A DNA stretch of 64,000 bases from Tribonema minus. Lineage: Eukaryota; Sar; Xanthophyceae; Tribonematales; Tribonemataceae. Numbering within the stretch: position 1 is the stretch's first letter; each line of letters begins with the position of its first letter. The stretch lies in the NCBI GenBank assembly GCA_017506865.1, contig JAFCMP010000035.1, positions 1,054,001 through 1,118,000 on the forward strand, given 5' to 3'. The notes beneath the pieces are model-generated. The model worked only from the letters and a program-made list of their open reading frames with translations, ran no database searches and was not told the origin of the DNA. Made by a program: the position numbers and the translations under genes. Shown in pieces: positions 6,332 through 55,023 of the stretch.

Positions 6332-8054
6332 TTAGTCGCTGGGGGATGCGGAGCGGGGCTCGCGACCCCCCTCCTCCGCCCCCTCGCCCTTGGGGGAAAG
6401 GGAGCGCGTCGCGCTGCGGCCACGGCCCTGGGGCTTCTCTGCGCTCTTGTCAGTGCGGCCGGCGCCGAAGAAGAAGCGGCAGACGACGCCGGTGATGGCG
6501 CCGACGCCGCCGACCACAGCGCCTGTGGTGTTCACGACAGCGCCCACCGTGTCGCCAGCGATGGCGCCGGCGGTGTTGACGATGGCGCCCGTTGTGTTGC
6601 AGACAATGGAGCCGGCGGTCTGCTGCGCGGCGCAGATGACAGCGCCGGTGAGGCCGACAACCGCGCCAACCGCATCCTGGACCAGACTTGACTGGCGCCG
6701 ATGGTGCTGCTTGGGGGAGGGAAGGGGCTGCGGCGCAGCAGCGGCGGCGGCGGTGGTGGCGGCGGCGGCGATGGCGGCGGCAGCGCGGCGTGCGCAGTAC
6801 TCCGCGTACTTTTCCCGCAGTTGCTGCGACTGGAAGTACTTGAGGCGAAACTGCGTAGGTAGGTATGCAAGACAAGCAAGAGAGGCATATGAGAGGTGTG
6901 CACGTGTGACAGTTGTTGGAATATGAGATGGTCCAATACTTAGTGCATACCCTAGTGGTAGGGCACGGTCCAGTTCTAAGGGTTTATCCAGTAAGTTCTA
7001 GCAAGTTCTTGAAGGTTCTGGTGCCCCTACGGAACGGAAGGTTCCCGCTGGCCCTTGTTTTGTGTCAGCGATAATATCACTTCTTCTTCTCCCAGCTCGA
7101 GGCGCCTGCGGGCGGCCTGCGGCCAGGGCATGGCTGCTCTCCTCTCTCTCTGCGCACCCCCGGTTTTCCAATACAGTGATTCACAGAGACTCTACCAGGC
7201 AGTTGGGCACGCTATCAAGTCATTCACGTCGCTGCACACAGCACCACAGATGTATACTGCTATCACGGCATCATGTATGCAGAAGGTCGTGCGTCTGAGT
7301 GCACTGACGCGTGACAGTGCTCACCTGACCGATTGTGCCGGTCACATTGCCGCTCTGATCCATGAGCAGCACAGCAACTGGGGCCGGTGCGCAGGTGTCA
7401 TCCCCGGGCAGCTCGGCAAAGGATGCCACAGTCGCCGCCACACGCTCGCACTTGTTTGTGTCGCGCATGATGGGGGGAGGCATAGCAGCGTCGCCGGGCA
7501 GCTCGTTAAAGAGCGCGACGCTCACACTGTATGCCCTTGCGAATGGAGAGCGGCGCCTGTTGCGGCGGTCACGCAGCACCTCCTCCATGATCCACCTTTG
7601 CAGCGTGTCGCGGGCCTCTGCGGGAAGACAGACACAGAGGTTTGACATGTTGGTACATGGCGATTTACAGTGGTTTACGTGCATAAAGGTCACTTGCACA
7701 CCTGCTTGAATGCATGTGGTCGCAGAGACCGTAGCCCCCAGTTGTGCAGTGCAGTGATGCTTCAGCAGTCAGCATGCAGCTGGAGCCTAATGCAGCTGGT
7801 GAAAGCCAAACCTGAGGGAGGCACGTACGAGTTTCTGTGCATGGCATTTCGTCCTCAAGCGAGCGTGCGGGTCGAAGGTACAGTGACTACATCAGCACGT
7901 GGAGCTTTGACTTACCGCTCAGGTGCTCCTCCGCTTGGGCGAGCATCCACAGCAGGTGCAGGCGCGCATCCCCGATGGCATCGACGAGGCGCTGATAGAT
8001 TTGGCCGACGAGCTTGGCGAGCTGGTCGATCACGTTCTCAACAAAGTCGCTCAT
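6332..8054 (-). CDS. Unrecognised 316-aa protein with glycine-zipper repeats (three exons)
   Basis: Exons 8054-7916, 7617-7325 and 6850-6332 join with matching phases (1, then 0) through clean sites: AGCG|GTAAGT, CCCGCAG|AG, CAG|GTGAGC and ACGCAG|TTT. The ATG at 8054 opens MSDFVENVIDQLAKLVGQIY, an amphipathic helical start. Exon 2 encodes a basic stretch and an internal duplication (ALFNELPGDAAMPP and ASFAELPGDDTCAP). Exon 3 begins with a charged helix (YFQSQQLREKYAEYC) and an Ala-rich run. About eight tandem 7-8-residue units of the type T-x-G-A-[IV]-[VA]-N follow, for example TTGAIVN, TVGAVVN, TTGAVVG and GVGAITG. The tail is basic then acidic and ends SASPSD. The repeat is a typical glycine zipper that could insert in or lie on a membrane; that role is inference. 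I recognise no family. The gene is convergent with thiolase and divergent from SMC1. Confidence 0.8.
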
Positions 8055-10988: not shown

Positions 10989-11000
10989 ATGAGCAGAGGA

Positions 11001-14000
11001 ATGGGGAGACTGGTGCGCATTGAGCTGGAGAACTTCAAGTCCTACGCCGGCAGCCAAACGATCGGCCCGTTTCGCGACTTCACAGCTGTCATTGGGCCCA
11101 ATGGCGCAGGTACACCGACACTATATGTTTGATGACGTGCCCATTGCTGTTTTTGTCATGACAAGCTGCGCCCTGCTACAGGCACTTGTTAAAGGGGGTG
11201 ATTGGCCTCATAGCCATGGCATCTATTGCATGGCACTTTTGTACTGCTGGAAGTGGAATGCGCTGCGTGCCACAACTGTGACAGTCGTCACCTCTCACAA
11301 ACCATGTATATGTGATGTACTTCAAGTATGAGTATCACACCACTCAGCAGGGATGCACCCACGTGTCGCCGCTGCGCCGTGCCTCTTGCAGTACCGCTGG
11401 CGTGACCTTCGCATGGGCGCTCGCCATCAGGGTGCAGTTGCGGTTCAGCAATGTGCATGTACATTTCGCTGAGTGCAGGGCCTTCGGCATCAGTCCTGTC
11501 TTCAGTATCTACGCGTTTCATACTGCCACTGCAATGCACCTGTACTTCACCTCTACGCCTGATGACGGCCGGCAAGACCTAGCCTGCGCACCAGCGCTCA
11601 CCATGAGGGTTCGATCGCGCTCCAGCAAGTGTTCAACCGCATCGCCGCCGCTCCTGTGCGAATGGCGCATCCTGCAGGCAAATCAAATCTGATGGACGCC
11701 ATCAGCTTTGTACTGGGAGTGCAGAGTCGACACCTGCGCAGCCAGAAGCTGGAGGACCTGGTTTTCAGGTGACAGTGTGTTCATGATCTTTGTAGACTTC
11801 AGAAGTCAAAGAAACTAGTGATGCACATGCTGTCGGGCACCTGAAATGTGCTTCTCTGTACTGCTATACAGTATTACTTGCGACCACGCTTATAGGTGGA
11901 AGGCACTTGCGGCTAACCACACCTTGTCATTCAGAGCTGTACGATCTTTTGATTTCGTTTCCATTACTATTACAGTGTGTACAATGGATTCTGGAAGTAG
12001 TGCATACGTATGTTCTGTGAATGTATATTCTTCTTTCACAAGATATCAGACATCTAGCAAGCTCTGCAGCACCTCGGGGCATGGCTTGCACAGACTCCAG
12101 GGTCAAAGTTGACTGTCTCCATTCATTCAGTCGCCAGCTCGGTGATGGTTTAAGCTCCAGGTCAGGGTCATGAGTGCGCTGAGGGGTGCAAAACCTTGAA
12201 GGCGGTGGTATGGTCATGTTGTCACCACAAGGCGTTACCGAAACTCTAGTTTGTTTGTTCATGTGCTGCAGTTGGCAGCAGCGCGCACCAGCCACGCCTC
12301 AACCTGCAGCCACACACATGCAGCGCTTGCGGTGAAAGTGTGTTTTCGTCGCATATGCTGACGCCGGCTAACGCAGGATGCTTTGATCGTGAGCATCACA
12401 ATGTGGTGGTGTCGTGCGCGGCTGGCTACTACAGTGACTAAGAACTCAAACGGAAACAGCTGCATTTCTGCAACGAGAGCGCCGTCGTTGCAGCCGCGGT
12501 GCTGTCCCCTCGTACCCCATAATTACTGCGCATACAGGCTTTCCTAGCAGTGCATGTATCCGTCGTGATCATAAGAGCAGTTGGAGTGTCACCCTGCTCA
12601 CTGTGCTGAGCAATGCTGACTTGTAGTGCGTGCGTACTGCGTGTTCCTGTGCGGCGCCGCTGTCACAGGGCGAGCGGGGGGTCTGCGTCGCGGCGGCGGG
12701 CCATGGTGAAAGTCGTCTACCAGGTGAGAAGCGGCCTATGAGAAGTGTAGTAGTGTATGGCATTTTTGTTGCAAGCGTGCATTTCGTCAGCAGCACGTGA
12801 GTTCCGGACAGGTGAGCTCGAAAGTCGTTCAACAGGTGACAAGCGGCCTGTTAGGGGATGGTGCCCTTGTTGCAAGCACGCATCTGCACAACAGCAGCAC
12901 CAAGTCTCCTGCAGATTATCTTAACAGCAGTGCCGACTTAGCTGTTGCAGAAGCGGATTGCTTACCATTTTTGTCGGCTCGCCTGAACTCAAGTGTCTTG
13001 TGCGTTTGTCGCCCGTCATTTGTGGCGTGTTGGGCACGCTCAAAATGGGCGCTCGCAGGACACATCAATTTTCTTTGTTGTACAGGTGCTGCTGCCGCGG
13101 AAGGCTCGGGTTGTTCTCCAAGCTTGTCGCTGTGACTGTGGCCGGGCACACCATTGCGACTAGCGCAGCACATGTGCCTCACCCATGAGATGACATACTT
13201 CAACTTCAACTTCAGCAGGATCATCTGCACGAATGTAGATGCTATATGGCCCATTGAAACGCACCAGCAGCTGGGCGTGGAGCTGCACTTCAGCAGGTCA
13301 TCATCACATATCAGCAGTAGCCAGTTTTGACCCCACTCCTTGCCGCATTTTCGCACAACCATCGTCACATGCCAGCAGTGGCCGAAACAGACCGCAGTCA
13401 CTGACCAACAGGTCTGCCGCTGCCATATCTGCAACAGGATGGCGAAAACGAGGTGGACACTGGTGAGGACCTGCACTTCATCAGGGTCATCATCACATAC
13501 TTCTTTGAAGTACTAGCAGTAGTCAGTTCAGACCGCTTTTACCGATCGATCTGTGGCTGCCATCTTTGCAACAGGTGGGCAAAAACGAGGTGGAGGGAAT
13601 GGATGCTGGCGAGGAGCTGCACTTCAGCAGGGTGATCAGCGCGGGCGGCGCATCCAGCTACAGGCTCAACGACAAGGAGGTTCCCTGGAAGGTAACGCAC
13701 GCGCGTGTTCTCATAGTCAAGTGCTGTGTTTGAGAATGCGTGTTCTCGTAGTCAAGTGCTGTGATTGAGCATCAGCTACAGGCTCAACGACAAGGAGGTC
13801 TCTTGGAAGGTGACGCATGCACGTGCTCTCGTGGGTCAAGTGCTGTGTTTGACATTAGTTACAGGCTCAACGACAAGGAGGTCCCCTGGAAGGTAGCGTG
13901 CATGCACGTGTTCTCGTAGGTCGCGTGCTGTGTTTGAGAATGAGGTACAGGCTCAATGACAAGGAGGTCCTGTGGAAGGTAACACGCACGCGCATGTTCT

Positions 14001-17000
14001 CATAGTCAAGTGCTGCGTTTGAGAATCAGCTGCAGGCTCAACGACAAGGAGTCATCCGGAAGGTAGCGGGCGCATGTGTTCTCGCAGTCAAGTGTGATTG
14101 AGGATGCACGACTTCGCCTCAGGGCACTGCGTGCTTCATTCTGGTACGAGGTTGCTTTCATGATGCTACAGCAATCATCCCAGCACCGCGAACGCTCAGC
14201 GCGTGCGATGATGTCAGCAAAGCGTGCCTGCGCTTGCATCGCTTCATAGCGATGCCCTGCGGCAGTGCTCAGTTCTCAGCGCGCCATTGCAGTTCGCCCC
14301 GACTGTTATTATTGCTCGTACCTGTACTCCCCATGGTGTGGTAGGGTGGGGCCGCTGTATGTTGTCCACATATGAAGGGGGGGGGGGAGGGGGCGTGTGC
14401 TGCAACGATGACTGGCAGTAGCTGGACACTATAAAACAGCATGCAAATATTCAGTCTTGCTTCTCGCCAACCAAGTATGACGCTCAGCATGCCCTCTCCT
14501 GCACAGGTGTCAAAGCATGTAAGAGACAAGCACATCAATGGTATGAAACAATGCCAGCAATTCACATACTTGTGTTTGCTCACCTACACCACGCCCCTGT
14601 CTGTGAGCGTTGCAGAAGTACGAGGAGAAGCTGCAGGACATTGGCGTGCTCGTCAAGGCCAGAAACTTCCTGGTCTTCCAGGCAAGTGTTTCGTCGCTCG
14701 CGCTGCCCACATCGTCGATAATTCTCCGCAACACTTTGTGTTTCGACGCTCGCGCTGCCCACATCGTCGATAATTCTCCGCAACACAATGCATCCGCTAT
14801 CCTGCAAGTAGGGCCTGACTTCGTGAGCATTTTCATGCACTGCCCTTCACACGACGTCAACGGCAAACCGCACTGCGTATTGCCCCTCAATCCGCCATTG
14901 AGATAAGCTGTCACGGGACTGCTCGGTGACCTTGAGTTCATCCGTGCGCATAGCGCTGGTCGCCTGAGTCCCCCTGGTGCGCAGTACGACCCCCCGCTAT
15001 CTGTTGAGCCTCTGTGTGTTTGGCACATAGGGCGTCACTGCCTTGGTGCGCGCATGTGCTGAAACGCGTCGCCGGCCCAGGAGCAAGACGATGCCATCGT
15101 TGCGTGTGTTGCTCACCCTGTTTCCCTGCTCGTGTCTGTGGCGTGCGCAGGGCGACGTGGAGAGCATCGCTGCGCGCAGCCCCAAGGAGCTGACGGAGCT
15201 GTTTGAGCAGATCAGCGGCAGCGACGCTCTCAAGGTGAGAACATGAGCTACTGACCTTCAGACCTGATTGAACCAATACTTTGAGTACAGAACTTGCGCG
15301 TCACGCAGGGGCGGCTTATGGCGTTTCACTCTGACATTCACCGCTGAGTGCACAACGTGTGGTCCATCGTCAATGTCTCAATGTGTCAGTTCCTCATATC
15401 TACACGTGTACATGCAACAGCGGCAGCGACGCACTCAAGGTGAGACGGTGCCGTGGAACGCGCGTTTGAGTGGGCGGAGCGCCGCCTTTTGCGTATGCAA
15501 TTAGCTTGTCTTATCGTCGAACAACGATCATCTTAGGACTAGTCATCTGCCAAAGTGGTAATTCAAAGTCTGGTCATCTGTTGCCTGGTGGCCCCGACGG
15601 TTGTGCAGAACGCGCACTCCTGTTTATTTATAAAGTTGCAGATTGCTAAAACCTTGCCCTTGTCTCGTGCATTTGATGGTGATGCTCAACCCCGCAGAAA
15701 GAGTACGATGCCTACAAGCGCGAGATGGAGTCTGCCGAGCAGGAGGCGCTGTACAGGTGAGGTGACATGCCAACTTCAAAGTTCAAGTTGAGCGTTGGTG
15801 CTTTTTTTCGTGCACTTCGACTGTGGTAGTACGGTCTGCTCCATGGCAGCACTACCAGTGACAGGGTGTTACAATGGCGGCGTAAATTGGCTGTGCGCTT
15901 TCACGTGAGAAGCATACGCAGGCATTCGTGTTAGTGAGCTCACCGTGAAGGTCCTTGCTAAATTGAGCTAGGTATTGAAGTGAATGACGCGACCCTGACT
16001 GTGTGAAGACGTGGATCGGATGGCAGATTTGATGACGACACAAGAGTCTGCAAGTTGCTCAAGGTCTCCTTGTTCCTATCCACACACAATGTGCTGTGCC
16101 ATCTTTACTTGACCTCTGACCATCTGTCGTACGGTCACTTACTCAATGAATTGTGCCCTCTGCGCTGCACTTCGATCCGACAGTATGCAGCAGAAGAAGG
16201 CCAGCGCTGCCGAGAGGAGGGTGGTAAAGGAGCAGAAGGAGGAGGCAAGTTCACCTTGTGTAGCTTGAACCTCGGAAGACTATACAGAATCAATTGTTCG
16301 TTTCAGCAGCTTCTGGATTATTCCAACATTGTGCATGACTGTTGGTATTTCCCTTATACTGGCAGGTCTGTGAAAGCTCAGGCGATGCATGCGACCGATA
16401 GGCGACACGCGCAATATGCAGCTCAAGATATAGTTCATGCCCTCTATATGTGGGAATGCCGCAGAGGATTTGTCCCTGTTACGTCGCTCGCTGTAAGCGT
16501 CTCCGGGCTTGCTTCATGCTTGCTGTCGCCTGCGCATCATACATAGGGGCGCGTCTGGCTAAGAACGCCAAGGGAAACCAATCTGCGATCTGCTAGACCT
16601 CAGACTGTCCGTTGATGTGTGTATAGTACAGTAAACCATCAACGGCTGACAGTACAAAGGTTTCATAGTACAATAAAGCATCAATGGCTGACGGTACGAA
16701 GGTACTGAAACTGTGATTCCCGGGGACCGATGAACGTGTTGATCTCTGTCTCTGCGTGGCTGGTGCAGGCGGAACGATTTGAGGAGAAGCAGGCCGAGCT
16801 CGAGGCCATCCGGCGCGAGTACTTCCTGGTGCAGCTGTTCCACCTGCACAAGTGAGTGCTTTCATTTGGCTGGCTCTCGCGATTCAACACAAAGAACCTT
16901 GTTCACGGTTGCTATGTGTAGCGCTGATGAATGCTGAGCAGCTTTTTCCCCCCAATGCAACAGCTGTGGTATTTGCTGCCGGGGGCACAGTTTTCAACAT

Positions 17001-20000: not shown

Positions 20001-23000
20001 TGGAGGACATCCAGCGCTTCTGGCCAGACAACGGCCGTGTCACTGACGCATCGATGTCCTCGGTGTTTGTCAGGACGAACACATTGTGGGTCAGGATGAA
20101 CACATTGCGGTCAAACAGAGGCCGTGTCACTGACGCTCAATGTGTCTTTGGGGTTTTGTCAGGACGAACACATTGCGGGATTGGTGGAGGACATTGAGGA
20201 GGCCAAGGAGAAGGAGGCGCAGCTGGCGCGGCGCATTGAGTCGGAGGGGCAGCACGAGCAGCTCAGCGCGGGGCGCATGAAGGAGTATGAGACTCTCAAG
20301 GCGGAGGCTCGGCGCACCACGCAGGCCAAGGTATGTATGCACATATTGCTGGATGCCACAACGTCATGTGACAGGGAGTACTTTCAAGTACATACTTCTT
20401 CTTTGAAGTGTATGCATATTGAAGTACACTTAGTGGGAATCTGCAATCAAGTTCGAGTACGAGGCCCTCAAGGCGGAGGCGCGGCGCACCACGCAGGCCA
20501 GGGTATGTACACATGTGATGCTGTATGCTTCAATGAGTAGTTGAGTTGTGTAATTTTCAGTGTATGCATGTTGACGTATGTTCGATGGCATCTGCAATGG
20601 AGTCTGAGTACGAGACTGGCAGGGCGGGGGCGTGGCGCACGACGCAGGTATGTATACATGTGATGCATTTCCACAACTACCACATTTGATCCTCTCCACA
20701 CGTGTGCGGTAAGCCAACTGCATTTGGCCGTCCGGCAAAGTATTTGCGCAGAAGAACACTGGAGTGCCTGAAGCCCAACGTGCGGTGCAGGCTGCGGTAT
20801 GTACTCATGCAATGCAGATGTAACGGATTTTGCAAGCTTGCGCCTGCTGGCAGGCTTTGGCCAGCCGACAAGCACCTGTGTAGACCGTCATTAAGGTACT
20901 TGAGGTTGGGCGCACAACGCAGGTCAAGATGGGTGTGCACACAATACAGCCAATGTTATTGTTAGGGTTAGGGTTGGGCCTAGGGTTTGAAGTGAATTGC
21001 GCGGGCACGACACAATCAAAAGCAAAGCTTTTTGCGTGCCATATATTATCCCCCGGCTGTTGTACGCTGGGCCTGTTCGTGATGACTGCTGCCAATAATC
21101 TTGTGTGCAGAAGCGCGGAAACTTGCTTGCGCTCATGTGGGTCTGCGCTCAAGGTAGAGTCAATGCTGTTGTCAGGGGTAGGTTGGGGCTAGGGTAGGAA
21201 GTGCACGCACGGGCAGGACACGGTGCGCCGCATCCACGAAACTTGCGAGAGCTTGCGGAATCTTGCCTACCGTCTGTGGGTCTGTGCCGACTGCTGACTT
21301 AAAGTTGTAATTGAAGTACCACGGACGTCACTATACCCATGCCTACCTGCCTCTGTGATGTGCTGTCTTGTGCAGAGGGACGAACTGGAGGGCGCGCGGC
21401 GCGAAGTGGCGGCAGCAACGGTGAGCACTGATGCAGCATCTGAGCAGCGCTGCTTCACTCCCCCAGATGTAGAGACTTTGAAATGTATGACACCAGGTCC
21501 GACGGCGTGCACATTTCTACAAGCTCTTATGAGATCAAGTCTTTTGCCCCCATTGGCAGCGGGTCGCAAGCCTGCTGCCCACTGGAGTGCAGCTTTTGGT
21601 TTGTGTTATGGTAAGCAGCAACTTGTGCAACGCTTGGGTTTGAAACTTCCATGTGCATTCATCTTCTCTTGATGTACATGTGCATATACTCGGATGTCTT
21701 CAAATGTCCATCAGATCTCTTGGTTCAGCTTTGTTCGTCAAGCTCTGTTGCAGGCGGCTGCGTTGTCTGTGCGCGCATGCGCCGCAGCCGCCCTCACGGT
21801 CGCGATTTCTACGCATATCTGCGTGCACTGCCTCTGCCAGCGTCAGTCAAAGCTAGAGGTTCAGCCAGCATCGAACTGCAAGGCAGTATCAGGCAAATGG
21901 CCCACGGCACTGCTTAGCGCACGAGTCAGCCTACAAGCGTCAACATCAACTATCATCACAGGATGTTGTCCATCTGTCTGCGTTCACGCGGTGGACTGCA
22001 TTTGCACACGACTTGCAGTCAGCTTGTGATCAAGATTATCAAGTGTTTCAAGCACTTTGGGCATGTAACCATGCTGCTGTGCCCAAGTTGAGCATACCTT
22101 TGTGACCAGTGAAAGCTGACATGAGTTCATCGCTGAACTGTGAACTGTGCGCAGGCCACGCTGGATGCTGCGGAGGCGGAGCTGTCCGCGTTGCAGCAGC
22201 GGCTCAGCAACATCAAGGAGAACCAGCAGCAGTACACTCAGGTATAGCGCGGCGTTCACCGCTCTGTGCAACCGTTTCACTTCTTCAGCAACTGTAAACA
22301 GTCAGGACGAGTACAAGTAACGAGTACTCGAGTACTACTCCCCGAAAAATTAAAAATTTAAACGAGTACTCGAGTACTACTCCTCGAAAAATTGAATTTT
22401 TAAACGAGTACTCGAGTACTACTCCCCCAGAGACTGAAAATTTACCCGAGTACGAGTACTTACTCGAGTACTTGACGAGTACTCGAGTACTTGACGAGTA
22501 CCAGGAGTACTCAACATGGAGGAGGACGTGGGGGAGGACCCCAAGATGCCATTTGGCGGCGGCGGCGTTTGAGTGGTTGTCGTTGCGACACTTTCAGACT
22601 GTCATACGACATGTAGATTCCTTACAGCTAGATGCCAATCATCTGGGCTTTTTCGCGTCCTGAGCTAGAATTAACAAAAAGTACTCAACGAGTACAAGAG
22701 TACTCGCTTAAGTATAGTACAGCCTGCACACGAGATGCGGATAGGTATGTAGCTGTAGCATGTAGCACCATGGCGTAGCAGAGATCATGAATAGAATATC
22801 ATGGCGGTGGCGGGAGGCCCGTATTGCCAACTCTGAATCAGCGCAGAAATGCAAGGAATCCGATCTAGCGTGCGCACAAGCGCAGGACATTAGCACCAGT
22901 GCTGCAGATGGCAATGGCGCTTGTCAACAGGACGATGGCACGAGTGGCAGCAGCAGAGCAACTGGAGACGGACGCGCAGCGCACAAACGCAAGAGGGTAC

Positions 23001-26000
23001 AGAATGACGGTTGGTCAATTTCCGATCACACAGGCGAAGGGGAGCACACGGGCGGGCAAAGTGCAGTCAAGCGCTCTAGAACAGGTCATAACAGTCTGGA
23101 ACAGCAACGTCTGATGCTAGACGACGAAGCTGGAGGTGGAGGCAGTGCGGACCCGGAGTACAAGTGCAACTTATGCGACCTCGTGGTGAAGAAGGGCATG
23201 TCGCTGCTCTCGTTACAGCAGAGGTTAAACGCCCACATCGCGGCGAAGCACCAGCGCGAACACCACAGTGGGACAGCAACAACGTTCCTGGAGCGCTCCG
23301 ACCTCAGCACCTCGCACTTGCAAACCATCTACACCGAGTGTGCCTTGCGCAAAAACCTGTTTCATGCCAACAAGACATTCAGGGTGGACAGCAGCGATGC
23401 CAGCGCGGGCAAGCGCTGCCGCAACTGCAGGCCTATCACTTCACCCGCTGCAGTAGGGGCAACATTGTCAACAACAGCATCAGCAGCACCGCTAGCACCT
23501 GATGCATCGACGGCATCAGCTACCACGTCACTGCCACAGCAGCAACCGGCGTGCACACCCATCGGCAAACCCTACGCAAAGGGACCAGCGCACGCGCAGC
23601 AGGCACCTGCTGCTCAGGCTGGTGGCAGCAGCTCCTCCGGCAGCTCAAAGAGGCCGGAACGCGGGGGCAGCAGTGCTACACGAGGGGGTCGGGGTCGCAG
23701 TGGAGGGCGCGGACGTGGCAATGGAGGACGCGTTCGCAGCCGCAGCAATGATGCAGACATCAGCAGTAGCAGAGCGACTAGCGGCAGCAGAACCGGAAGC
23801 GGCAGCAGCAGCGGTGCCGGCGGCGGCAGTGCAGCCGGTACTAAGGACAGCGGCGCTGGCAACGGCCGCAGCAGTGATGCCAGCAGCCGCAGCGGCGGTG
23901 CTAGCAACAGCGGCAGTGGCGCGCGAACTCAAAACGGCCGCGGCGGCCGTGGCAGCGGTCGCAGCAGCGACAGCGGCGGACGAGGCTGTGGTCGTGGCGG
24001 CCGCGGCGGCGGCGGAGGGGGCCCCAGAGCGGCAGGTGCGGCGACAGCAGCGGCAGCGCCAGGCCCTGCAGGCGCAGCAGGTGGGGCAGGTGGGCTTTTC
24101 ACATGGACCATCTCAACCCCCGCTGTCGCAGCAGTGCTTGACAGCATCAGCCTCGATGAGCTGTGCAAGCTGCAGTTTGCGACAACTAGAAGCCTTACTA
24201 GACCACGCAATCGTCGCTATGTGGGAGCTGCACTGGAGAACGCAGCAACACATCTGTTGGCAAACACAATGACGATGTTCGTCAATGCGGCGCGGGAGCC
24301 AGATTCCGCAGGGCGGGTGCAGCGACTGCAAAGATCCACGATTCTACACCACCTCATGCCATCACTCATCACCTCCACCGATGGCGCACCTGGCATCACT
24401 CGCTCCGACAGAATCAGAATGTTGGCACGCGGTGAGCTTGACCGGTTGGTGCCAGCGCTCCTCGCACACGCGCGTGCGCACCGGCGCTGGCGCGCGCGCC
24501 AGCAAACGGAGGCAGCGATCAACGCCTACGTCCTACAGTGCATGGGCACACGGGGGGGGCTACAGCAGGCAGCGCGTGTCCTTCAGCCCAAAACGGTGGC
24601 GATATTTGATGATGACTGCTTTGCCGCCATGCAGTCCAAACACCCCCCCGCTGCGCCAGGGGAACAACTCCATGAGCTATCCGGCATGGTTGATCAGCTT
24701 GTGGCGAAAGCAGCCGACATGCCAGCAGAACTCAGCCTGTTACAGGGGGAGGGAATTGAGCCAGAGACGGTTGCCAAGCTCATCCAGCGAGCTAGCCCTT
24801 ACAGTGGAGCAGGCCCATCGGGGCTGCGCTACAGCCACCTGCAGGATGCGCTACGCACAAGCTGGGGACGGCATGAGTTTGCTGCTGTCCTCACGCGGTG
24901 GCTTCAGACCGTTATGCGGGAGGCTGCGCGGCTGCCGGATGCCTTCTGGCAGTTGCATGGCGCGGGGCGCCTGACGCCACTTGCAGAACAACAGGAAGAT
25001 GGTACAGCTAAGCAGCGGCCCATCGTTTGCGGCGAGGTGCTGCAGCGACTATGCACTTCGGTGTACGTGGCAGACCGCAAAGACTTCCTGGCGGAGCTCC
25101 TTGAGCCAGACGGGCAGTATGGGGTAGCCGTCTCAGCAGGAGCGGAGAAAGCGGCCATGGCCGGCAAACTCGCGTATGAGCTCGGTCACTGGCAGTTCAT
25201 GCTGGACCTCAAGAATGCCTTCAACATGGTGTTCGTCCTGGCGGCAGCGGAATGGGTAGCAGCACAGCTGCCGGACTTCCTCGACTACTTCATCGGCACA
25301 TACGTTCGTTCGCACTCGGCCACGCCTGCTGTTCCAGCACGTCGACGGCTCCACGCGCATCATCATGTCTCAGCGCGGGTTTAAGCAGGGGGACCCCGCG
25401 GCACCGATGCTCTTCTGCGGCGCTATTGCTCAGTGCTTGAAACGGTTCAATGAGGCGGCGGCCGCGCAGCGCGCGCGGAGGCGGATGGGCGCCTACATGG
25501 ACGATGCCAACGTTCGAACAGGCGCTTGCACGCTGACTCAGGATGACATACAGGCGGTGGCGCAGCTAAAACAACACTTTGCGGAGGTGGGGCTGGAGCT
25601 AAACCTCACCAAGTCACGCGCGCTGCCTGGCAGGGGGCATGTGGTGACAGACCACGAGCGGCAACTGCTGCAGCAGCTGGGCGTTCAGCTAGTGGGGAAA
25701 ATGGATGAAAATCAGAACCGTGGAGCTGTGTTGCTGGGGGTGCCGGTGGGCCACAGCAGCTTTGTGAACGCATGGCTGCGCAGGGAAGCGGGTGCAGGCG
25801 GGGCAGGGGCTCGATTCGCAGAGCGATGCGCGCGCCTGACATCTCCGAGGGCTATGTTCAGGTTACTGCGCTACTGCGTGGTGCCTCGCATGACGTACTG
25901 CCTGCGCACCATTCCCACTACACAGACAGCGCCAGCCGCCAAGGAGTGGGATCGTGTCACGCAGTGGGTGCTTGAGCACTCAATGGGCCTGCAGCCACCA

Positions 26001-38000: not shown

Positions 38001-41000
38001 GCGCGAGCAGTCTAGCAGCGCCTGGAGGCCGAGGCGGCCATCCAGAACTTGTCCATAAACAATACACGCCAAGTGTGCCATTCCCAGCACCAGCCTTCAA
38101 GCAAAATTACCCTCAGCTTGCGCCAGTATTGTTTCTTTCTTGCGCCTGGCGGCAAACTGACGTTGACTGTGCCACATTGGTGCTCGCTGCCTGCACGGTG
38201 CCATCGTTGTTTGTGGCTATTAGGAGCGGGACCGCGAGCAGGCGCAGCGCCTGGAGGCGGAGGCGGACATCCATAACTTCTCCATAAAAATTCACTCCAA
38301 GTTTGCCCCTTCCAACACCACCATTCAAGGAAGAGTGGCCTCACCATGCGCTAGTCTTTGTTCGTTCTTGCGCCCGGCGGCAAGCTGACGTTGACTGTGT
38401 GCCTGCACGGTGCCACCGTTGTTGACGATCGCTGCCAGGAGAGGGACCGCGAGCAGGCGCAGCGCCTGGAGGCGGAGCTGGCGGATGTGGACGAGAGGCT
38501 GCGCGACGCGCGCGCGGGACGGCGCGAGACCAACCACGAGGTGCGTCGTCACTTGAAGTACGGCAGCGGGCGTGCCGTTGAAGTATTAGACCTGTAGCAC
38601 CCATCACTTGAAGTACGATGGCGAGCGCTGTACGACTAGCGAGAGGCTGCGCGACGCGCGCGCGGGACGGCGCGAGACCAACCACGAGTTGCGTCGTCGC
38701 TTGAAGTAAGACAGCGAGCGCGCCGCAAGGGGATGAAAGGTTTGTGAACCCCGGTCCAATCAACACTGCATGTTGGTAGGCCGTATTGTATGGCGTTCAG
38801 ATTGGACGCGAAGAATTGGGGCTCAAGCGCCCCTTAAACTGTGTGATGCACGCGCGGGCCGGCGCGAGACCAACCACGAGGTGAGTCATCACTTGAAGTA
38901 TGGCATTTGGCTGTCACATGTCTGTGCTGTTCATTGAAGGCGCGATGTCAGAATAGCGTGGCGATGGTGAGCTCGCCTCTGCGTCATATTTGCCAGGCGT
39001 CTGCGCGGAGCAGTGATGTCATCCAACGTCTTGTGCGTATTTTGTACGTGTACGCAGGCGCGCATGGCGGAATGCCTGGACACCCTCAAGCGACACTTCC
39101 CTGGGGTGAGAGACGTTCAGTGTAACAGTGCACGACATGCTCTGGAACATGCAGGCATTGGTTACATGCCGCCTGCGTTGCTTGTGCTTGTGCTTTGAAG
39201 TTTCTCAGAATAGAATGCCACGTATGCAACAGCCAATATTGTACTTCAAGTTTTGTGCAGAAGGCGTGTGTTTCCACAGGGTGGGCACAAGGTTACAACG
39301 AATGTGAGAATGGCATTTTCCTAGCTGAGTGATATGCTATGCGCATTGTTTCTTTCGAAGCAGCACTTCATGTACAATGGATCGTCCAGGTGCCCTCAAG
39401 TCCATTTTGTCTGGAATGCACGACTGACTGTACAGCGCTGGTTCCAGCCATAGGCTCGGAGGCACAAGGTCATATTATAGGCTCTTGCCTATCAGAGTAC
39501 CCCTTGTTCGTGATGCTCGCTTTTGGTGGGTAGAAGCTCTTGCCTGCACGCGCACTCCGCCCCAATGCCTACTTGACCCCCCCCCCCCCCCCCTCGTGCG
39601 CCGTGAAACCACCTCTCTCACGCAGGTGCGCGGCCGCCTCAGCGCGCTCTGCAAGCCCGCGCAGCGCCGCTACAACGAGGCCGTCGCGACCGCCGCGGGG
39701 CGCCACATGGACGCCATCGTCGTGGACACGCGGGCGACGGGCTTCGAGTGCGTGCGCCACCTGCGCGCGCACCGCCTCGGCGCCGCGTCCTTCATACCGC
39801 TCGACGGCATCCGCCCCGCGCCCGTGGGCGAGCGGCTGCGCGCGCTGGGGCCGCAGTTCCGCCTCGCGATCGACGTCATCCAGGTGAGTCAATGACTTGT
39901 AGAGTTGGTGAGTCATCAAGTAAGTGACTAGGTGTACCTGCGCGCGCACCGCCTCGGCGGCAGAGCAACCGTCGTTCTTAGAGCTGAACAGCGTACATTC
40001 CGCGCCCATTGGCAAGAGGCTGCGCGCGCGCTCGGCCCACCGTTCCGCCTCGTGATCGACGTCATCCAGGCAAGTCGGCGAGTCATTGAGTGAGTGAGTA
40101 GGTGTGCACCTGCACGCGCACCGCCGTGGCATCCGTCATTTTTGTGGCGCTGAACGGCATGTGCCCTGCGCGCATTGGCGAAAGGCTGTGCGCACGCTTG
40201 ACCCGCTGTTCTGACTCGCGATCAATGTTGTTCCAGTGAGTCGGCGAGTCGCTGGGCATCAGCTACGCCATCTAGGCGCAGCGCGGCGCGGCGATCGCTG
40301 TCATTTCGCCCGGCGGCATACGGCCGGTATGTACGCGTGGTCTGCGGTATCGCCTCGAGATCGGTGTCATTCACGTCATCCAGTGATGTAGGGAGTCGTT
40401 TTCTGCTGCCTTGCATGTGCCATTCATTGTCGTCGCTGTTCTGCTCGCTGCTCCCATTTCATGAATCGCTTGTGCTTGGAAGCCACGTCTCATACTAAAT
40501 GATCTACACTCATGCCATACACATGTGTACACACGCTGGCTTCGCCATCCCCTCTCGACGTGTGCGCGTCTCTTGCAGTGCGACGATGACATCCGGCCTG
40601 CGGTCGCGTTCGCCGTGGGCAACACGGTGGTGGCAGAGTCCCTGAATGACGCGCGCGACCTGCGCTTCCGCCGCAACGAGCAAGTCAAGGTACGCGGGTC
40701 AGAGTCAGAGTCACAGTGTCTTTCTGTGCTCTTCCAGAATTTTGGAACCGCTGCGGCAGTGTGTCTTGCCTCGAACGGCGAGCGTGACCTGCGCTTCAGG
40801 CGCATTGAGCACACTTGTTTTCCCCGTGATTGTGGCGATAAGATCAGGGCATGATTTTTCATCATGAGCCGTTTACGGTGCTGTACAGTAAAACAACACG
40901 TACCGTCAGAACAACAACAGCTGCAGTATTCACATCACAACGCCATGCGCTGGTCGCAACACACTGGCGGTCTTACGCGCACAACGCATCGTTCAACACT

Positions 41001-44000
41001 TGTCGTTGTATCGCTTTTGTGTGTGCAGTGCGTGACCATCCAGGGCGCCGTCATCACCAAGGCGGGCAACATCACGGGCGGCACCACGTCCAGGGACAAC
41101 AGCAGCGCTCACCGCTGGAACGAACAGGAGGTACATGCATACTGTAACCGCTTGCTTGCGAACCAGGCTGCAGCTTCAAATACAAACATGAGGCACATAT
41201 TGTAACCGCGTGCTTAACAGCATGTCGCAACTTCAGATACACTTCTGCGCCCAGGGTGCGCAAGTAACTCTTTATGGCCAGGGCCTTGCGCTGCGCTGTT
41301 GCCTGTACATGCAATGAAATTGTGTGCATCAGAACTGCTGTTGCTGGGCTATGAAAATGTGAAACAATTGTGCGGTTCAGCACGTCAAAGCGTGCAGATA
41401 CATTAGCGCAGCAGGGTGTTGCGCTCGGGCGCATGCACTTTTGTTGAAGTTGCTGCGAGTGGCATTGCTGAACATGCAATGTTGATGTTGTTGCTCCAGG
41501 TCCAGGAGCTCAAGAAGAGGCGCGAAGACCTGAGGCTGGAGCTGGCCTCTCTCAACAGGTATGTGTACCGCACATGCTGGCCTCCATCATTATGAAGTGC
41601 TTGTCTTGAAGTATGAGGGTCACTTTGCGGTATGGGCAGGGCGGCCTGGGCGTTAGCTTGGCCCTGCGAGTCTCTGCAAGTATCCACTCAACTCAGCCAT
41701 CACTGATTTTGTGTGCCTGCGTCTACTGCAAGGCGACAGTCACCACACGGCTCAGTTGGGCACCAGGTAGCGCAGGAGTGTGTGCTCGGGCAACTTGTGA
41801 CGTGTAGTTGCGGTTGAACTAGCGCTGCAATGCGCTTCCGCCTTGATTGATCTATCAACCTCAATTTGAACTTGTCACAGGTCGCACCGACACGAGAGCG
41901 CGCTCTCCGAGCTGCGCACGCGGCTGCAGGGCCTGCGCAACAGGCAGTCCTACAGCAAGGCCGACATGCAGGTGTGCGACGGGCATCATGTACTTCAACT
42001 TGAAGTTCAGTGTTGCAGTGTTCACGCTTCCGATAGAGTCAACATGTCCACTGCTCTCCATGCTCAAGGATTTTTGTTTAACAATTCTCATGCAGGCTGA
42101 CAGAGGTGTTGAGGTTGCACAATGGCTTTAACTGAATTGCACGTGGCTTCAAGGTCAGCTCCGGGTCGAATGAAGGTGCGCTGTGTAGCCTTCGAGAAGA
42201 TTCTTCAGATGATGGATGCCTTCAGGGGCAAGCAGCTCCTCTCTGATGTCAACGATTCGTGAAGTGCTGCTACTGAACGATTTGGACTTCACTACTGCTG
42301 GTATCGGTACATAGTGAGCACTGCTGCCACTAGACGAGAAGGCGCTCGACCACATGGCTGACTGAGCGTACAGACGAGAACCTGTCATCACGTCAACCTC
42401 ATGTTTAGTTTAGCTCACGCTTTTAACGGCATGGTGCTTCCAGTGCTTCCGGACACTTCCCCGAGTGTTTTCAACGATGGTGTTGCTTGCACTCACTTGT
42501 TGTACTTGCGGACTCACCTGTGCCACTGGACTGCTGCCGTTGCTGCTGCATTGGGGCAGGTCTGTGATGACAAGCTGTCATCGCTCAACAAGCAGGAAAA
42601 GCTCATCACCGCGCAGGTCGAGGCGTCGAGGAAGGCCAGCACCAAGGTGAAGTTTGTAGTATTGGAGTTTGCAGTGTTGAAGTAGTGTGTAGTGCTGAAG
42701 TAGTTTGTAGTGTTGAAGTTACTACTAGCATCTGGATCGCTCGGTCGTGCATCAGGCGGTACCAGCATGGCTGACAGAGCTGCGCTGCATGGGGTTGCAG
42801 GGCAGGCTGGCAGCAAGGAACAGGCGCATCTAGAGAGAAGTTTGGGACACGAGTTCGTAACGGTCTTCGTGCCGTACTTGAAGTACCAGCTGCTGCTCCC
42901 GCCGGACGTGGACCAGCTTATGTCACATGATCGGTGCTGTGCATGGGTCAAGAGTCCAAGTGGAAGAGATTCGTGTGCACCCTGAGAGTCCAAGTGGAAG
43001 TGATTCGTGCTCACGCATCGCATCCGCTCGATACTTTCAGTTGGCTCCCGCGCTTGGCGGCACACCATCCTCATGCAACAAAGCACTTGTGAGTGCGCAT
43101 TTCTGCTGATCTCAGGTCACGCGCAACGGACGCCCCCTGTTGAAGTTCAGCATTGAAGTGCTGTGGGCGACCTTTTGCCATGATTGTGCCCCTGTCCTTC
43201 CAGTGATGCTGCGGTCCAAACCCCTCTAGGCACCCATCACCATGGACAGTAGGTATGATGGTATACCCCATGAACGGTGATTGGCGCAGGCAAAGGATGC
43301 GCTGTCGAGCCTCGAGTGGTTGGTAGGTAGGATGGTATACCCCATGGCAAAGCACTGTCATACACACCTGTGTTCTTGGCGCAGGCAAAGGATGCACTGT
43401 CGAGCCTGGAGAAGGGCGTGGCCAAGCTGGAGAGCAAGCTGCAGAAGGCCGAGGACGCCATATTTGCTGACTTCTTGAAGGAAGTGGGCGTCTCGAGGTG
43501 AGCAGCCCGCACTCCAGTGCGCAGAAAGCCAGTGCATCCCATGGAGTGATGGTCTGACCCTGTGCATGCTGAGGCCATGATTGTCACGTGTATATATGTA
43601 GACATGATGTCAACTTAAAGAGGTATGCTCAGTCATTGCCGCAGCGTGCGCGACTTGAAGGCGCGTCTGATGCACGCGGTCCTGGGCCTCGAGCGCCAGC
43701 GCCTGCGCCTAGTCGACCACCTTTGCAATACATGATGACCATGTGTTTGACTTTCAACAACACTTAGGCTTGTCTGTCGCCGCAGTGTATGCATGCACCC
43801 TCTTCCACTTTGACACCCACCAGCATAATGTTCTTCCACTTTGACACCCACCATCATAATGTTCAAACGCGATGCTCGCTCGTGCATCGGTGCGACGTGC
43901 CGCGACATTGACGGGGGGCCAATGCACGCAATGCCCGACCTCATGCGCAAACTATGGAAAGTCCAGAAGTTCCTCCGAGAATGCGCTTCCACTTGCTGCT

Positions 44001-47000
44001 TGCATTCTTTTACGCAACACAATGTATGCGCGTGCGCCGCTGCAGCGTGCGCGACTTTGAGGAGGGCCCGATGCGCGCAGTGCGCGGCCTCACGCGCGAG
44101 CGCCTGCGCCTGACCCAGCACCGTGCCAAGCTGGAGGCGCAGCTCGAGTACGAGCGCGGCCGCGACTTCCAGAAGCCCCTTGATAAGGTGAGCGCGCGTG
44201 CACATAAGCCCACACGTCCTACAGCTAGTACTTCTTGGCAACTACTTGAGCAAATACTTGAAGTAGCAGTGGTGTTGATGGTAGGATTCTGATGTGGATG
44301 GATCAGGACTTGGGATTTGTACGGTCAAGCGCCGTGCCAAGCTGAAGGCCTCGGCTCAAGTGATGGCCTTTTTTCAGAGACTGCTACAAAGGATGGTCAT
44401 GTTGTAGTTCAACAGTTCAACCTCTCATGGTACCGAGCACCGGTGAGGGCAACCCCCAAGACAGGTCCGCAGCAAACACTTTTGTAGCCAGCTACAGGCG
44501 CAGCGCTAGCATGAGGGTTGGCGACTGCTATGAGCGCGTTAACCAGGGTCACACACCTCATCTCACATAGAGTCTGGTGAAGGCTCTCCTTGTGTCGTCT
44601 TTGTACACATCTAAGGAAGTACAATATTCCGGTACTTTTAGATTCAAAGTTGCAGATTCTTTTTGTGCCTCTCCATTCAGATTTTTAATAGAGAGGTAGC
44701 ACCAGAGGCTGTTTTTGTCAACTTGTCAACACGGTATGCGCTGCGCGCGTCAAGCCCCCCTCCACCGCCACTGAGCACTGACACACAAACACACGTGAAG
44801 CTGTAGCTGTGCCAGCTTCTGCATCTCATTGTCTGCTTGTGCGGCTCGCCAGCTTCTGCATCATCTCATTGCGAGCTTGCCTTCGTGACCTGGACAGATG
44901 ACGGCATGAGTTACACAATCAGCCGCCACTGACTGAGCTTTGACACGGGGGAGCATGTTGAAATTGTACCAGTGCCAGCTTCTGCATCTCATCGTCTGGT
45001 TGCCGCATTTGCCAGCTTGTGCATCTCATTGCGAGCTTGCCTGCGTGACCTGGTGTTGGACAGATCACTGCGAAGGCGGCGGCGAAGCGCGCTGCAGCTG
45101 TGGAGGCTGAAAAGAAGGGCGCCGACCTCAAGGAGAAAGAGGAGGTATGCTGGTATTATTCTGTTGTATTACTGGCAGTACCATTTTGCAATGCATAGGC
45201 AGAACCATGACGGTCAATGTCACCTGCTGTGCTGTTGCATGGACAAGCGTATGCATATGCGTGCACCTGAATGTACCTGGAAGACAGAGGAGGTGCGCTG
45301 GTGGTCATGTACTAAGCAATTCGCACAACGAGTCGACGCAGAACCGTGGTGGTCGAGTCCTCCTCAAAGCATGCTGTGTTGTGCATGGACGACTTCATGC
45401 ACACATGCGTGTACATGACTTATGTTTTTGTACAATGGACCCATTGCGGCGCATGCTGCTACACTCGCGACGGCCAATTGTCACTGCAAACATGAGATTT
45501 CCAGTGGGGTATGGGGCGGCTCCTTCCGGGGCAAGTAGGCCCTACATAGACGTTTCATGCCTACATAGACGTTTCATGTCCCAGCAAACCCTGGCATCAA
45601 ATGCTTCTAGTTGCATCGATTTGTATACTGCCATGCATGTGCACATCCCGAAGAGCACAGAGCATGCAGATGGCGGACATCCCTTGATGCCGAACCGCAG
45701 CCTCTGTGGCCGTCGCTAACATGAAAAACGAATCAAAAGATTGTTGAGCTCTAGGTGACAAGGGATGGTTAGCCGCGAGTGCCTTCCACCAATAACCGTG
45801 GTCGCCGCTGCTGCAGTCATTGGCCACGAGTCGAACAGTGCCACCGTATCCAACAGTCAAAAAGACTTCTGTGTGCAAGCTTTTAGCGTTCGAGGCATGG
45901 GTGTTCAGTAACATATTTCTTGTGTAAACGCATCGCTGCAGTGGCCGCAGCTGTCGATGAAACGCATCGATTGCGCTTGTATGCTTGTTGCACGAACATG
46001 TGCGCAGATGCTCTGGTTGATTGTGCTTGTACGCTTGCTGCACGAATGTATGCGCAGACGCTCATGCGCAACACTGTTTTCTCGTGAAAGCGCATTGCCG
46101 CAGCGGCCGCGACTGTCGATGAAACATATTGATGGTGCTTGTACGCTTGTTGCACGAATGTATGCGCAGACGCTCATGCGCAAGGCCGAGGAGCTGGATG
46201 GCGTGGTGAAGGAGCGCAAGGAGGCGGCTGGCGCGAAAGAGAAGGAGGTATGTATGTATGTAGATATGTATGCTGGAAGGGGGGGGGGGTAATGTATCGG
46301 CGCAAAGGGTGTTTCAGGGTGGATGCTCCGAAGCCTGCATGGGTGCGATCACGAGGCTTGCAGCGCATATGCAAGCGCTCATGCTCAGTAGGGACTTGAA
46401 CCTTCGGTGTGGTCCTTGCCACTTTGGTGGTGCGTATCATTCGCATGCGGCGTAGACGGGCTCGATGTTGCTCCATTGATGTGCATTGTTGCACTTAACT
46501 GAAAACTTCTCAAAGGTCGACCGCACTGGTGTCTGCCTGTAGCATCAGCCAGATCTCAACACATTAAAAGACGGCACTAGTACAAAAAAACACTTCACAA
46601 AACTGGCAACAAAAAGTCACAGTTTGCCAGCCGTGATTCTCTCCATTTGCCTCCATGCGTCTCGGTTCCTGCACACATGCTAGCCCTTGCAATCGCCGTG
46701 TGCAAGGGCTGGCAACAAACAATTGCAAACGACTGCCCATCATCAACTTGTGATCGTTTGTTCTTCTTTTTTTTTTTCGGTTCGCTAGGTGCGCGAAATT
46801 TATAGAAGTATGCAAGTCCTTGCACCACACATTGCAAGCGACTGCACATTATCACGAGCTGCCCATTCATTGCCTGCCATTCGTAGGTGCGGGCGGTGCA
46901 GTCGGAGCGCCAGAAGCGCGCCAAGGAGCGCGCCTCTATCGGCAAGAAGACGACTGCGGAGGAGACCGCGCTGGAAAGACTTCGCGCGCGCCTGCACGAG

Positions 47001-50000
47001 GTACAGCATCACCGCTCATCGCTATTTTCTGATTGAAGCCAAAATGAGCTTAGGGTTAGATGAGGGCTGATTCGGGGTTTTAGGGTTAGGGTCACGGTAA
47101 GGGCACCGCTCCGTGCACGCCTGCACATCGTACAGCAACACTGACCACGTGCTGTGTACAGCATGTTGCGCACAGGTGCACTTGTCGAACAGTGCTGCAG
47201 TGGCAAAGACAGATCTGCTCACGACAGTCATGTGAAACTGCTGCACCTGCGTGACTGCACTTCAGCATGGCATTGACAGCCGCTTTGGCGCACCGCAGGA
47301 CCTCAACTGCTCCTGTCCTTGACATGTTCTGATACTGCAGTACTCTTGCATGGCACTGTACTTACTCGTGACAGCGCGCATCACTACGACACTCCCTTCA
47401 TGTCGGTGACTGATGCTCCGTATTGTGTGTTGTGCGCTGTGTGCTGTGCCTTCCGATGAGCAGGTGCTGCAGCGCGCCGCAGTGGAGGAGGTTGATTTGC
47501 CCATGAAGGACCAACCTGAAGACGCCGACGGTGATGTGAGTCTGCTGCATGAGTCTAGCCCTAGCCCTAACCCTGGCCCCAAACCTACCCCCCACAGGTG
47601 TGAGCCTAACTTCAACCTTTCAACTAGCCTTACCCTAAGTGACTCCGCCACGTGAGCCTGAGGATGCTGGTGGTGATGTAAGACCGCTGCATCAACCTAC
47701 CCCTACCCCTACATGCTTATCTTACCCTGAGTGAGTCGGCGGCAGAGTCGTAACCCTAGCTTCAAGGTACCCTTACCTCAAGCGGCTCCAGCACCTGAGC
47801 CCGACCCTGGCTCGAATCCAAATTTTACCCCTGATTTCAATCCTGTTGCAGCAACACGGTGCACTGCAACACATCTGAGCGGGTGGCACATCTTATGGAC
47901 TCTGAAGTGGAGTTTGAAAGAGCCCGTATGCGACCGTTGCCAATCAGAATTGCCGAAGATGCGGGCTTTCCCCTAATGACTGATGCCTGGAAGTTGCGCC
48001 GAAAAAGACTTCGTCTGCGTCTTGCCAGTGAACCTTCACGATTGGTGCTCTCTCACTCTCTGTCTTTTGTGCTCTGGCGGCAGTCAGGCAGCATATGCTG
48101 AACGACGCTAGCGGTAGCTTTACACATGACAAATAGTTTAAATGCCACTGAATATGGTTAGATTGTTGGTGCGTTGCACTCACCCGCTCCGATCGCTCCA
48201 ACACGCATTCACCCTGTAACTGACAGCGATCCACGCCGTTGCCGCTGCCTCAGGAGGCGATGAGCGAGGCGAGTGGCAGCACGCATTCGCGCAGCCGGCA
48301 GCTCTCGGCCGACACGTCACAGGTGAAGATTTGCTCTGACCTTCAACATGAAGCCCATATGGTGTGGTTTGACGCCTTGAAATCGCAATGTGCAGCCCCT
48401 GCAGGGTTGCATGCGCTGCAGAAGCGTTTTTTTGTTGCACTTTTTGAGGTGCTTAGTGCTTGTAAACAATTCGAGTGTGCAGTTCTGTGATTGCATGTAT
48501 GTGCGCGTCTGGGCGTTCAGTCACGTCTGCCAGTGCACAAGCCTCGTCAACACCCGCGAGGATGCTTCTCATGACTTACAATGTACTTCACGTATCGGGT
48601 GGCTCTTTTGTAGAAAGTCTGTGCTGAACAGTCGCCATTTGGAGTGAATCTGAGGTCAACCCCCCGCCCCCTTTCCCACCCTTGCCATCTCATGGCCCCA
48701 TGGCTGCCCCCGGCCCTAATCAGGTTCCTCTGCATGCAGTGCACACAAATGTATTTCCATACTGCATCACACTCAACCGCTAGAAGTGTTTGAGCAACCA
48801 TCTTCCCTCGCTGATGCCCCCCCCCTCCCCCCCTCCGCTCCCCCCGCATTTGCTCCGCGACACAGTCTCAGCAGGAGTCCGGCCCCCACTTCAGCCAGGC
48901 GGAGAGCCGCACTGTGCAGAAGGACAAGGAGGCTACAGCCAGGGTGGATCTGGACCAGCTCAAGAAGCATAGACGCGTGTCTAGCGCTCATGAGCTGCAA
49001 GAGGTATGCATGTACCGTACTGTACTGTACTGTACTGCACTGTACTGTACTTCCGCACTTCTTCTCTAAAGGTGTGTGTACAGCGCACCGAGAAGTTTGC
49101 AAACACACACTAACTTGCAGTTGCACAGTCGTAGTACATGATTTTGAGGAGCACTTCAACGTATGCGCAACGCACCATGACGTGCGCAAATACGACCACA
49201 ATGGATTGCAACAGTGGCAGCACATGAACACGACAAATGAGTGTACAAAAAGGCACATCAGTGTTGCCTTGAAGTTTTTGAAGCATGTGAACAAGAGAAT
49301 GCTATCTGGGTCATACATTGAGGCCCTACTGGATGTGCCCTTGGTGATGCTATTAGTATGAACATGTCGCAAGCAGTGTTCCAGAGCAGGCTTTGCATGG
49401 CTGCTGATTTCATGCAGTACTTGGAGCACTCCCGTGCTGCAGGAGCTGCTGAGCCAGCACACCACAATATCTACGCAAGGGCATATGCAAGGGCATGCCG
49501 GGGTAGGTAAACTACCAGAAAATAAGTTATTAGGCCAGGTGCCATGGTGTAGATGCGCCAGTGTGTGTTCTGAATCACGTAAGGGAGGCCAGCATCTTCC
49601 TTCTGCGGTGACTGCTCTCATCTTCCTCGTAAATAAGTGTTTGCGAAAGCGGCATGCGCCCATCAGCAGCAATTCAGGAGATTTACTGATGGTTTGTTTT
49701 GGATTTAAATTTTCAACTACTCCACAATGTGCAAATATCACGTTACCAATCGCTCTTCATCGCGGCGAACTCTGCAGATTCTTGGCCAGTACACCACCAA
49801 GATTGCGGCGCTGCGCACGGAGCTGCAGCGCATGCAGCCCAACCTCAAGGCGCTGGACCAGTTCCAGGCTGCACAGGCAAGTTGAAGTTGCTGATGCGCT
49901 GTCGTAGCAGCGCTCATGCATGTGAGCAAGTGGCATGCATTCAGTAGCGCTTGCCTTGTAGTTCGCACCGCAGATTGGCACACCACCTGTGACAGCACGC

Positions 50001-55023: not shown

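Follow-up and report, generated by a model that had tools for sequence, protein, structure and literature searches.

The window analysed here is a stretch of 64,000 nucleotides from the genome of the yellow-green alga (xanthophyte) Tribonema minus, corresponding to bases 1,054,001-1,118,000 of a contig of 1,537,782 bases (C35) in an assembly of 158 Mb and 554 contigs. It contains the gene for the cohesin subunit SMC1, which has homologues and which we modelled by hand as 39 exons in a single open frame, the last of them starting at 54969 and ending with the stop codon at 55023. A sequence-only reading had counted 41 exons; our model has 38 between 12669 and 54433, and 39 up to the stop. Three further N-terminal exons were placed from P0002, a published T. 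minus model named 'structural maintenance of chromosomes 1 protein' (Table 1). For the 27 introns between exons 12 and 39, alignment to the genome of P0001, a transcript-derived SMC1 protein of 878 residues from EukProt, gives exactly the junctions of the hand model, all of them at the exon-proximal sites. P0001 differs from the hand model in six residues and, to judge by these, may come from another strain.

Four of the 38 introns in the SMC1 model are of the GC-AG type (at 14681, 16244, 49876 and 54433, the ends of exons 3, 6, 32 and 38), and phase-0 introns are in strong excess (61/87) when SMC1 is taken together with five other gene models described below. The large insertion in intron 14 consists of a 5.5-kb element that occurs twice in opposite orientation (22698-28174 and 30995-36507, 96% identical); five of its nine long ORFs were scanned, and the one at 25365-26405 contains a reverse-transcriptase domain. 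Adjoining the inserted element at 36572-36610 is a telomere-like short repeat of the TTAGGG type, and TAGGGT stretches resembling it recur in introns near 20960 and 47040.

Table 1. The SMC1 locus and the copies of its exon edges (positions in the window; identities are those between copy and original)
Feature	Position	Strand	Remarks
SMC1 (cohesin subunit) gene region	12669..55023	+	39 exons; hand model with single open frame; homologues
Three further N-terminal SMC1 exons	9603-9631, 10997-11109, 11678-11768	+	placed from P0002
Large inverted-repeat insertion in SMC1 intron 14	22300..36550	.	excluded from echo counts
Donor copy of exon 1 (12669-12723)	12820..12896	+	67% identity
Acceptor copy of exon 2 (13575-13691)	13374..13492; exon-only piece 13274-13303	+	70% and 90% identity
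Four head-to-tail donor copies of exon 2, period about 85	13773..14107	+	79-89% identity; TRF period 85
Donor copy of exon 4 (15151-15234), 28 bp	15418..15445	+	96% identity; unit continuation undetectable
Two acceptor copies of exon 12 (20163-20330)	19835-19912, 19991-20082	+	70% and 75%
Three donor copies of exon 12	20455-20533, 20606-20677, 20902-20941	+	73-82%
Two donor copies of exon 15 (37150-37239)	37320-37454, 37455-37534	+	67% and 90%
Two acceptor copies of exon 16 (38439-38540)	37961-38038, 38133-38262	+	72% and 77%
Two donor copies of exon 16	38640-38725, 38839-38905	+	93% and 88%
Three donor copies of exon 18 (39626-39883)	39970-40130, 40148-40242, 40307-40391	+	66-73%
Copy of part of exon 19 (40579-40689)	40773..40811	+	80%; ends before donor
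Acceptor copy of exon 24 (43385-43497)	43281..43304	+	96%; left flank duplicated too
Two acceptor copies of exon 25 (44046-44187)	43623-43728, 43866-43948	+	72% and 74%
Two copies of last part of exon 25	44328-44361, 44490-44547	+	82% and 67%; not junction-spanning
Acceptor copy of exon 27 (46170-46247)	46017..46071	+	96%
Donor copy of exon 28 (46887-47000)	47109..47141	+	79%
Donor copy of exon 29 (47464-47535)	47657..47711	+	76%

The introns of this gene contain copies of the exon edges that adjoin them, hereafter termed echoes. Their presence is confirmed by an alignment of every SMC1 edge against its own intron, a comparison that the sequence-only reading had proposed. Up to 60 nt of exon and 60 nt of intron per edge were aligned by the Smith-Waterman method, and z was scored against the other SMC1 introns, the reverse complement and the wrong-side intron with a cut-off of z>4; the donor side of exon 14, which adjoins the transposon, was left out. 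The similarity of the edges to their own intron is higher than that to other introns: the cut-off is passed by 14/37 of the donor and 10/38 of the acceptor sides, so that 19 of the 39 exons are touched, while the reverse complement gives 0/75 and the wrong side 2/71. The donor-side match of exon 3 is not junction-spanning, and a strict test for junction-spanning copies finds them at 12 of 40 internal exons (including two of the three added upstream exons). The earlier figure of at least 20 of 41 exons is thus approximately right at the sensitive setting and not under the strict test, and the statement that most exons are so flanked was too strong at either. The clearest cases are the donor side of exon 2, both sides of exons 12 and 16, and the donor side of exon 18. 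As many as four copies per junction occur in SMC1, and seven in another gene. Chance as their origin is ruled out by the controls of the edge test and by a Markov control, in which ten first-order sequences of 10 kb gave 0 pairs at permissive scoring settings.

The earlier reading had also called for a scan of further multi-exon genes, and five were modelled from T. minus or transcript-derived proteins. They were picked by the retrievability of a protein and not by their echoes: ten query pieces were taken from nine loci and led to proteins for six, one of which is a single-exon gene and contributes no intron. Two annotated segments of the gene on contig C18 (5375-5593 and 8188-8265) were dropped before counting because of their overlap with donor copies; in the gene on C2, 13202-13300, absent from the transcript P0123, was dropped and 11073-11216 added. 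Four of the five genes show echoes, and the fifth gives one intron, without an echo. Over the six genes a junction echo is present in 46 of 86 introns (SMC1 21/40, the others 25/46; the transposon-bearing SMC1 intron 14 is the one excluded from the total of 87), which rules out a peculiarity of SMC1. The spanning test finds 84 copies at 32 of the 81 internal exons; they belong to 40 families, 24 of donors and 16 of acceptors. In a genome sample of twenty 10-kb stretches, 18 of them from contigs other than C35, local direct pairs were found in 15 of these 18 at permissive and in 13 at stricter scoring. The sequence covered amounts to about 0.3 Mb of the 158 Mb of this single eukaryotic genome. 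Introns with echoes are longer than those without (median 834 vs 562.5 nt, p=0.0008), which fits growth by duplication and could also reflect the greater room in long introns.

Intron interiors are full of like duplications, with 26.9% of 804 interior 60-mers having a partner on either side. Edges and interiors were compared in the 72 introns that are 410 nt or longer, where all detectable copies together give 40/144 for edge-adjacent intron sequence and 319/2020 for the interior; when stratified by intron, 38 of 130 edge-adjacent stretches have a copy where about 18 are expected. The strong, younger matches, which form a small class, give 2/144 at the edges vs 48/2020 in the interior (p=0.77). 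Over all loci, with introns and intergenic sequence separated by a home-made gene finder (35/49 exons exact and 47/49 overlapped in leave-one-out trials) that probably over-extends genes, the share of all matches in successive classes of distance from the exon is 18.5, 20.0, 16.3, 10.6, 10.2 and 8.2%, and that of strong matches 1.6, 2.4, 2.0, 1.6, 1.6 and 0.9%; within 300 nt of exons there are 28/1371 strong matches and beyond it 31/2203, a 1.46-fold difference (p=0.18). Older, weak copies are enriched beside exons, and strong, younger ones are not detectably so, in what are small numbers. In our reading, duplications arise roughly evenly and survive better next to exons, since there one member of the pair is safe from loss; a modest bias of formation towards exons is possible. 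A process aimed at the junctions themselves, such as nicks or R-loops at exon edges or pre-mRNA-templated repair, would duplicate them repeatedly, and it could account for the twofold excess beside junctions and for the gradient over about 150-300 nt. With strong matches showing no detectable excess at the edges and the interiors duplicated too, we regard such a process as unlikely, and the aim at splice junctions implied by the sequence-only reading is unsupported.

The local pairs within 2 kb of each other in 310 kb of sequence comprise 173 direct and 10 inverted ones, with a median offset of 186. Fifty of the 118 usable non-redundant pairs are contiguous, and in 35 of the 68 spaced pairs, against 2/68 in the control, the remaining part of the unit has been duplicated as well, marking these as head-to-tail units broken by later indels. 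In all, 85 of the 118 pairs fit head-to-tail units, and most pairs are of tandem origin. In the other 33 pairs, some of them above 93% identity (among these 97.7%, 96.4% and 95.7%), the copies are separated by a spacer with no match to either flank; simple head-to-tail duplication does not account for everything, and these pairs may carry filler at the join or have arisen by local template switching. They are also what recommends templated insertion during break repair, by a polymerase-theta-like or template-switching route, as a source of all the copies: segments would be pasted nearby with a spacer, and the spacers of the 33 pairs indeed bear no relation to the stretch of the unit that should stand there. 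Templated insertions occur in both orientations, however, and the bias of 173:10 towards the direct one, the uniform polarity of the spanning copies (84/84) and the 85 pairs that fit head-to-tail units make this origin quite improbable. The earlier claim that introns grow by repeated tandem duplication of junctions thus retains its tandem source and its extension to several genes, and is compatible with the greater length of introns with echoes, but it loses the aim at junctions. The two cleanest recent duplications, at L013:4982-5565 and 7056-7239, have units of 291 and 92 bp that are 99.3% and 98.9% identical, and would be useful for a study of breakpoints.

The polarity itself is without exception in the six genes: donor-spanning copies lie downstream of the exon in 53/53 cases and acceptor-spanning copies upstream in 31/31, just as had been described from the SMC1 sequence. 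Tandem geometry requires this and no special rule is needed, since duplication across a donor leaves the first copy, and duplication across an acceptor the last copy, joined to the exon. The same polarity rejects the idea that the copies are left over from the birth of introns through duplication of exonic AGGT segments (the tandem genomic duplication model). Tandem duplication is the mutation in both cases, and an intron of a potato gene was made by a duplication across an intron-exon boundary (PMC4974935); but such births predict intron 5' ends that resemble the following exon and 3' ends that resemble the preceding one, whereas all 84 spanning copies have the opposite arrangement and the wrong-side searches gave 2/71. 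Although ancient births would be invisible, we hold this origin to be very unlikely. An artefact of assembly is scarcely credible: near-identity is seen in a few pairs (99.3% and 98.9%, both in L013), but most copies are 65-90% identical and stand in serial arrays of differing divergence, which misassembly does not create, and the exon structure matches the independent transcript-derived protein P0001.

The copies take in little of the exon (median 41-46 nt, at most 100), and this exon part has an identity to the original of 0.856 for donors and 0.845 for acceptors, against 0.761 and 0.754 for the intron part. The Jukes-Cantor ratio of intron part to exon part is 1.80 for donors and 1.72 for acceptors, close to the value of two that would follow from constraint on the exonic original and drift everywhere else. 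Of the 53 donor copies, 40 retain the decoy GT, with 38.9 expected at the rate of the exon part, and 23 of the 31 acceptor copies retain the decoy AG, with 22.1 expected. This shows that the decoy dinucleotides are neither purged nor kept, their loss keeping step with the divergence of the copied exon sequence. Intact decoys are common: the dinucleotide (GT or GC; AG) is intact in 44/53 donor and 23/31 acceptor copies; by a matrix derived from real sites, 31/53 donor and 19/31 acceptor copies reach or exceed the 5th percentile of those sites; and 17 donor and 9 acceptor copies equal or surpass the site from which they were copied. Many decoy sites are left, as the sequence-only reading had stated, and its companion claim of a single usable junction per exon does not hold if it is read as a loss of signal. 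Nor are the copies nearest to the exon the best preserved, as it had supposed, this being the case in 12 of 25 multi-copy families where chance predicts 10.1. Within the transcript-confirmed part of SMC1 the dinucleotide is intact in 9/12 donor and 4/6 acceptor copies, and P0001, one transcript-derived protein covering 27 introns, follows the exon-proximal sites despite these intact decoys. Splicing seems to ignore the junction copies.

A separate feature of these introns is the heptamer TTGAAGT/ACTTCAA, which occurs 112 times in 67.8 kb of intron sequence from SMC1 and the five other genes, against 8.5 expected from dinucleotides, and four times in 13 kb of exons. Its density falls from 6.2 per kb within 60 nt downstream of the donor to about 1.0 per kb beyond 300 nt, with examples after SMC1 exons 5, 8, 16, 22, 23, 32 and 38; over all loci it is present 270 times vs 32 expected. 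Its distribution suggests that it is possibly an intronic splicing signal.

The search at the 81 internal exons of the six genes found no copies of complete exons. Random placement with all the observed unit lengths predicts that 33% of exon-touching events would duplicate a whole exon; with the nearest-copy units of the 40 families the expectation is 19.5%, and P is about 1.7e-4 if the families are independent. We think it probable that the echoes result from frequent, roughly neutral tandem duplication that is filtered by exon definition, with one-sided copies being tolerated and whole-exon copies removed. The T. minus genome would, by this explanation, undergo frequent short local tandem duplications, in units of mostly about 100-400 bp and at a rate for which a single genome supplies no yardstick; most would land in introns and then decay. 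When a duplication crosses a single exon edge, the copy attached to the exon would keep working and the other would become an intronic echo, presumably a harmless one. This echo would mutate freely, its exon part, whose original is under constraint, diverging at a single neutral rate and its intron part at about twice that. The constraint would double the time for which a piece of exon remains recognisable and so yield more echoes at the edges, where, in addition, the original can probably be neither deleted nor scrambled, which would make echoes over-represented there. As the half-rate argument is inapplicable to intron sequence next to the junction, it is protection from deletion that would have to explain the twofold excess (38 vs 18) in that sequence. 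Short exons are probably defined by the pairing of acceptor and donor, and a lone decoy, having no partner, would be tolerated. Duplication of a whole exon would bring both sites, and the copy would be spliced in and removed by selection, which would explain why none was found. More tentatively, we envisage as a possible wider picture that the introns consist largely of decayed material from their own ends, duplicated time after time, with an unusually high rate of short tandem duplication lengthening them, strict exon definition hiding the duplicated junctions from selection, and the genome holding great numbers of real and decoy sites paired by a known shared origin, at all stages of neutral decay.

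The echoes have left traces in the available protein models. P0002 holds several stretches absent from P0001: it extends exon 27 upstream to 46104, and the added 46104-46169 lies inside the duplicated array before that exon, while its stretch 14682-14807 covers an intronic 52-bp duplication. Ordinary intron sequence makes up its remaining extra stretches, and it lacks exons 17 and 32. The additional residues RSTPLPLPQ in P0002 were considered as a donor echo of exon 29 and rejected as such, for they map to 48227-48253 and extend exon 30. In P0125 (L014/L023, contig C18), the residues from C18:5375-5593 and 8188-8265 overlap donor copies and face mostly gaps in six relatives; these segments are possibly misannotations or new exons. 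A paralogue, P0244, shows, at the protein level, two duplicated peptide stretches in the alignment with relatives. As a practical warning, published T. minus protein models contain stretches from echo arrays.

Local tandem duplication inside genes is reportedly the subject of Hellsten 2011, which is said to belong in this respect with Ma 2016 and Lehmann 2010. The potato study reports an intron gained by tandem duplication across an intron-exon boundary and mentions internal gene duplications (Ma 2016, PMC4974935); a Drosophila study reports intron gain by tandem duplication (Lehmann 2010, PMC2891723), and a review is among the nearest literature on the subject (PMC3488318). The T. minus echoes are akin to such gains in being local intragenic tandem duplications, the potato unit as described likewise crossing an intron-exon boundary (PMC4974935). 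Unlike them, the echoes create no intron so far as our tests show; what is duplicated is a junction already in place, whose copies go into its own intron, time and again and in many genes.

Three further comparisons place the echoes among familiar phenomena. They have their class of mutation in common with tandem exon duplication but consist of one-sided edges only, with no whole-exon copy at the 81 internal exons. Like introner elements they are repeated sequences with splice sites in introns, yet they are specific to the exon and not members of an interspersed family; such a family is rejected, since edges are more similar to their own intron and a 1-kb stretch searched against the genome matched, among the matches listed, itself and a local copy (at least two matches). 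As with pseudoexons and cryptic or decoy splice sites, intact splice signals lie in introns, seemingly unused, but the T. minus decoys descend from the adjoining real site, which fixes how strong they were at the outset and makes their decay measurable. The ingredients of the explanation that we favour are already known, and it is the scale of the junction echoes for which we found no description. The search covered open-licence literature, with subscription papers mostly outside it, and is weak evidence of novelty; it returned no account of systematic junction echoes at such scale, and yielded no result on T. minus introns and tandem duplication.

The echoes provide a traceable route by which introns lengthen, and a donor copy combined with a chance acceptor could give rise to a new exon. 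They also amount to a natural experiment on the choice of splice sites, in which one transcript carries real sites and, at distances of 100-500 nt, decoys that were initially identical to them and have since decayed to varying degrees. Should intact decoys be ignored, a rule by which the site nearest to the exon wins, that is, exon definition, would become measurable in an organism far from animals and plants.
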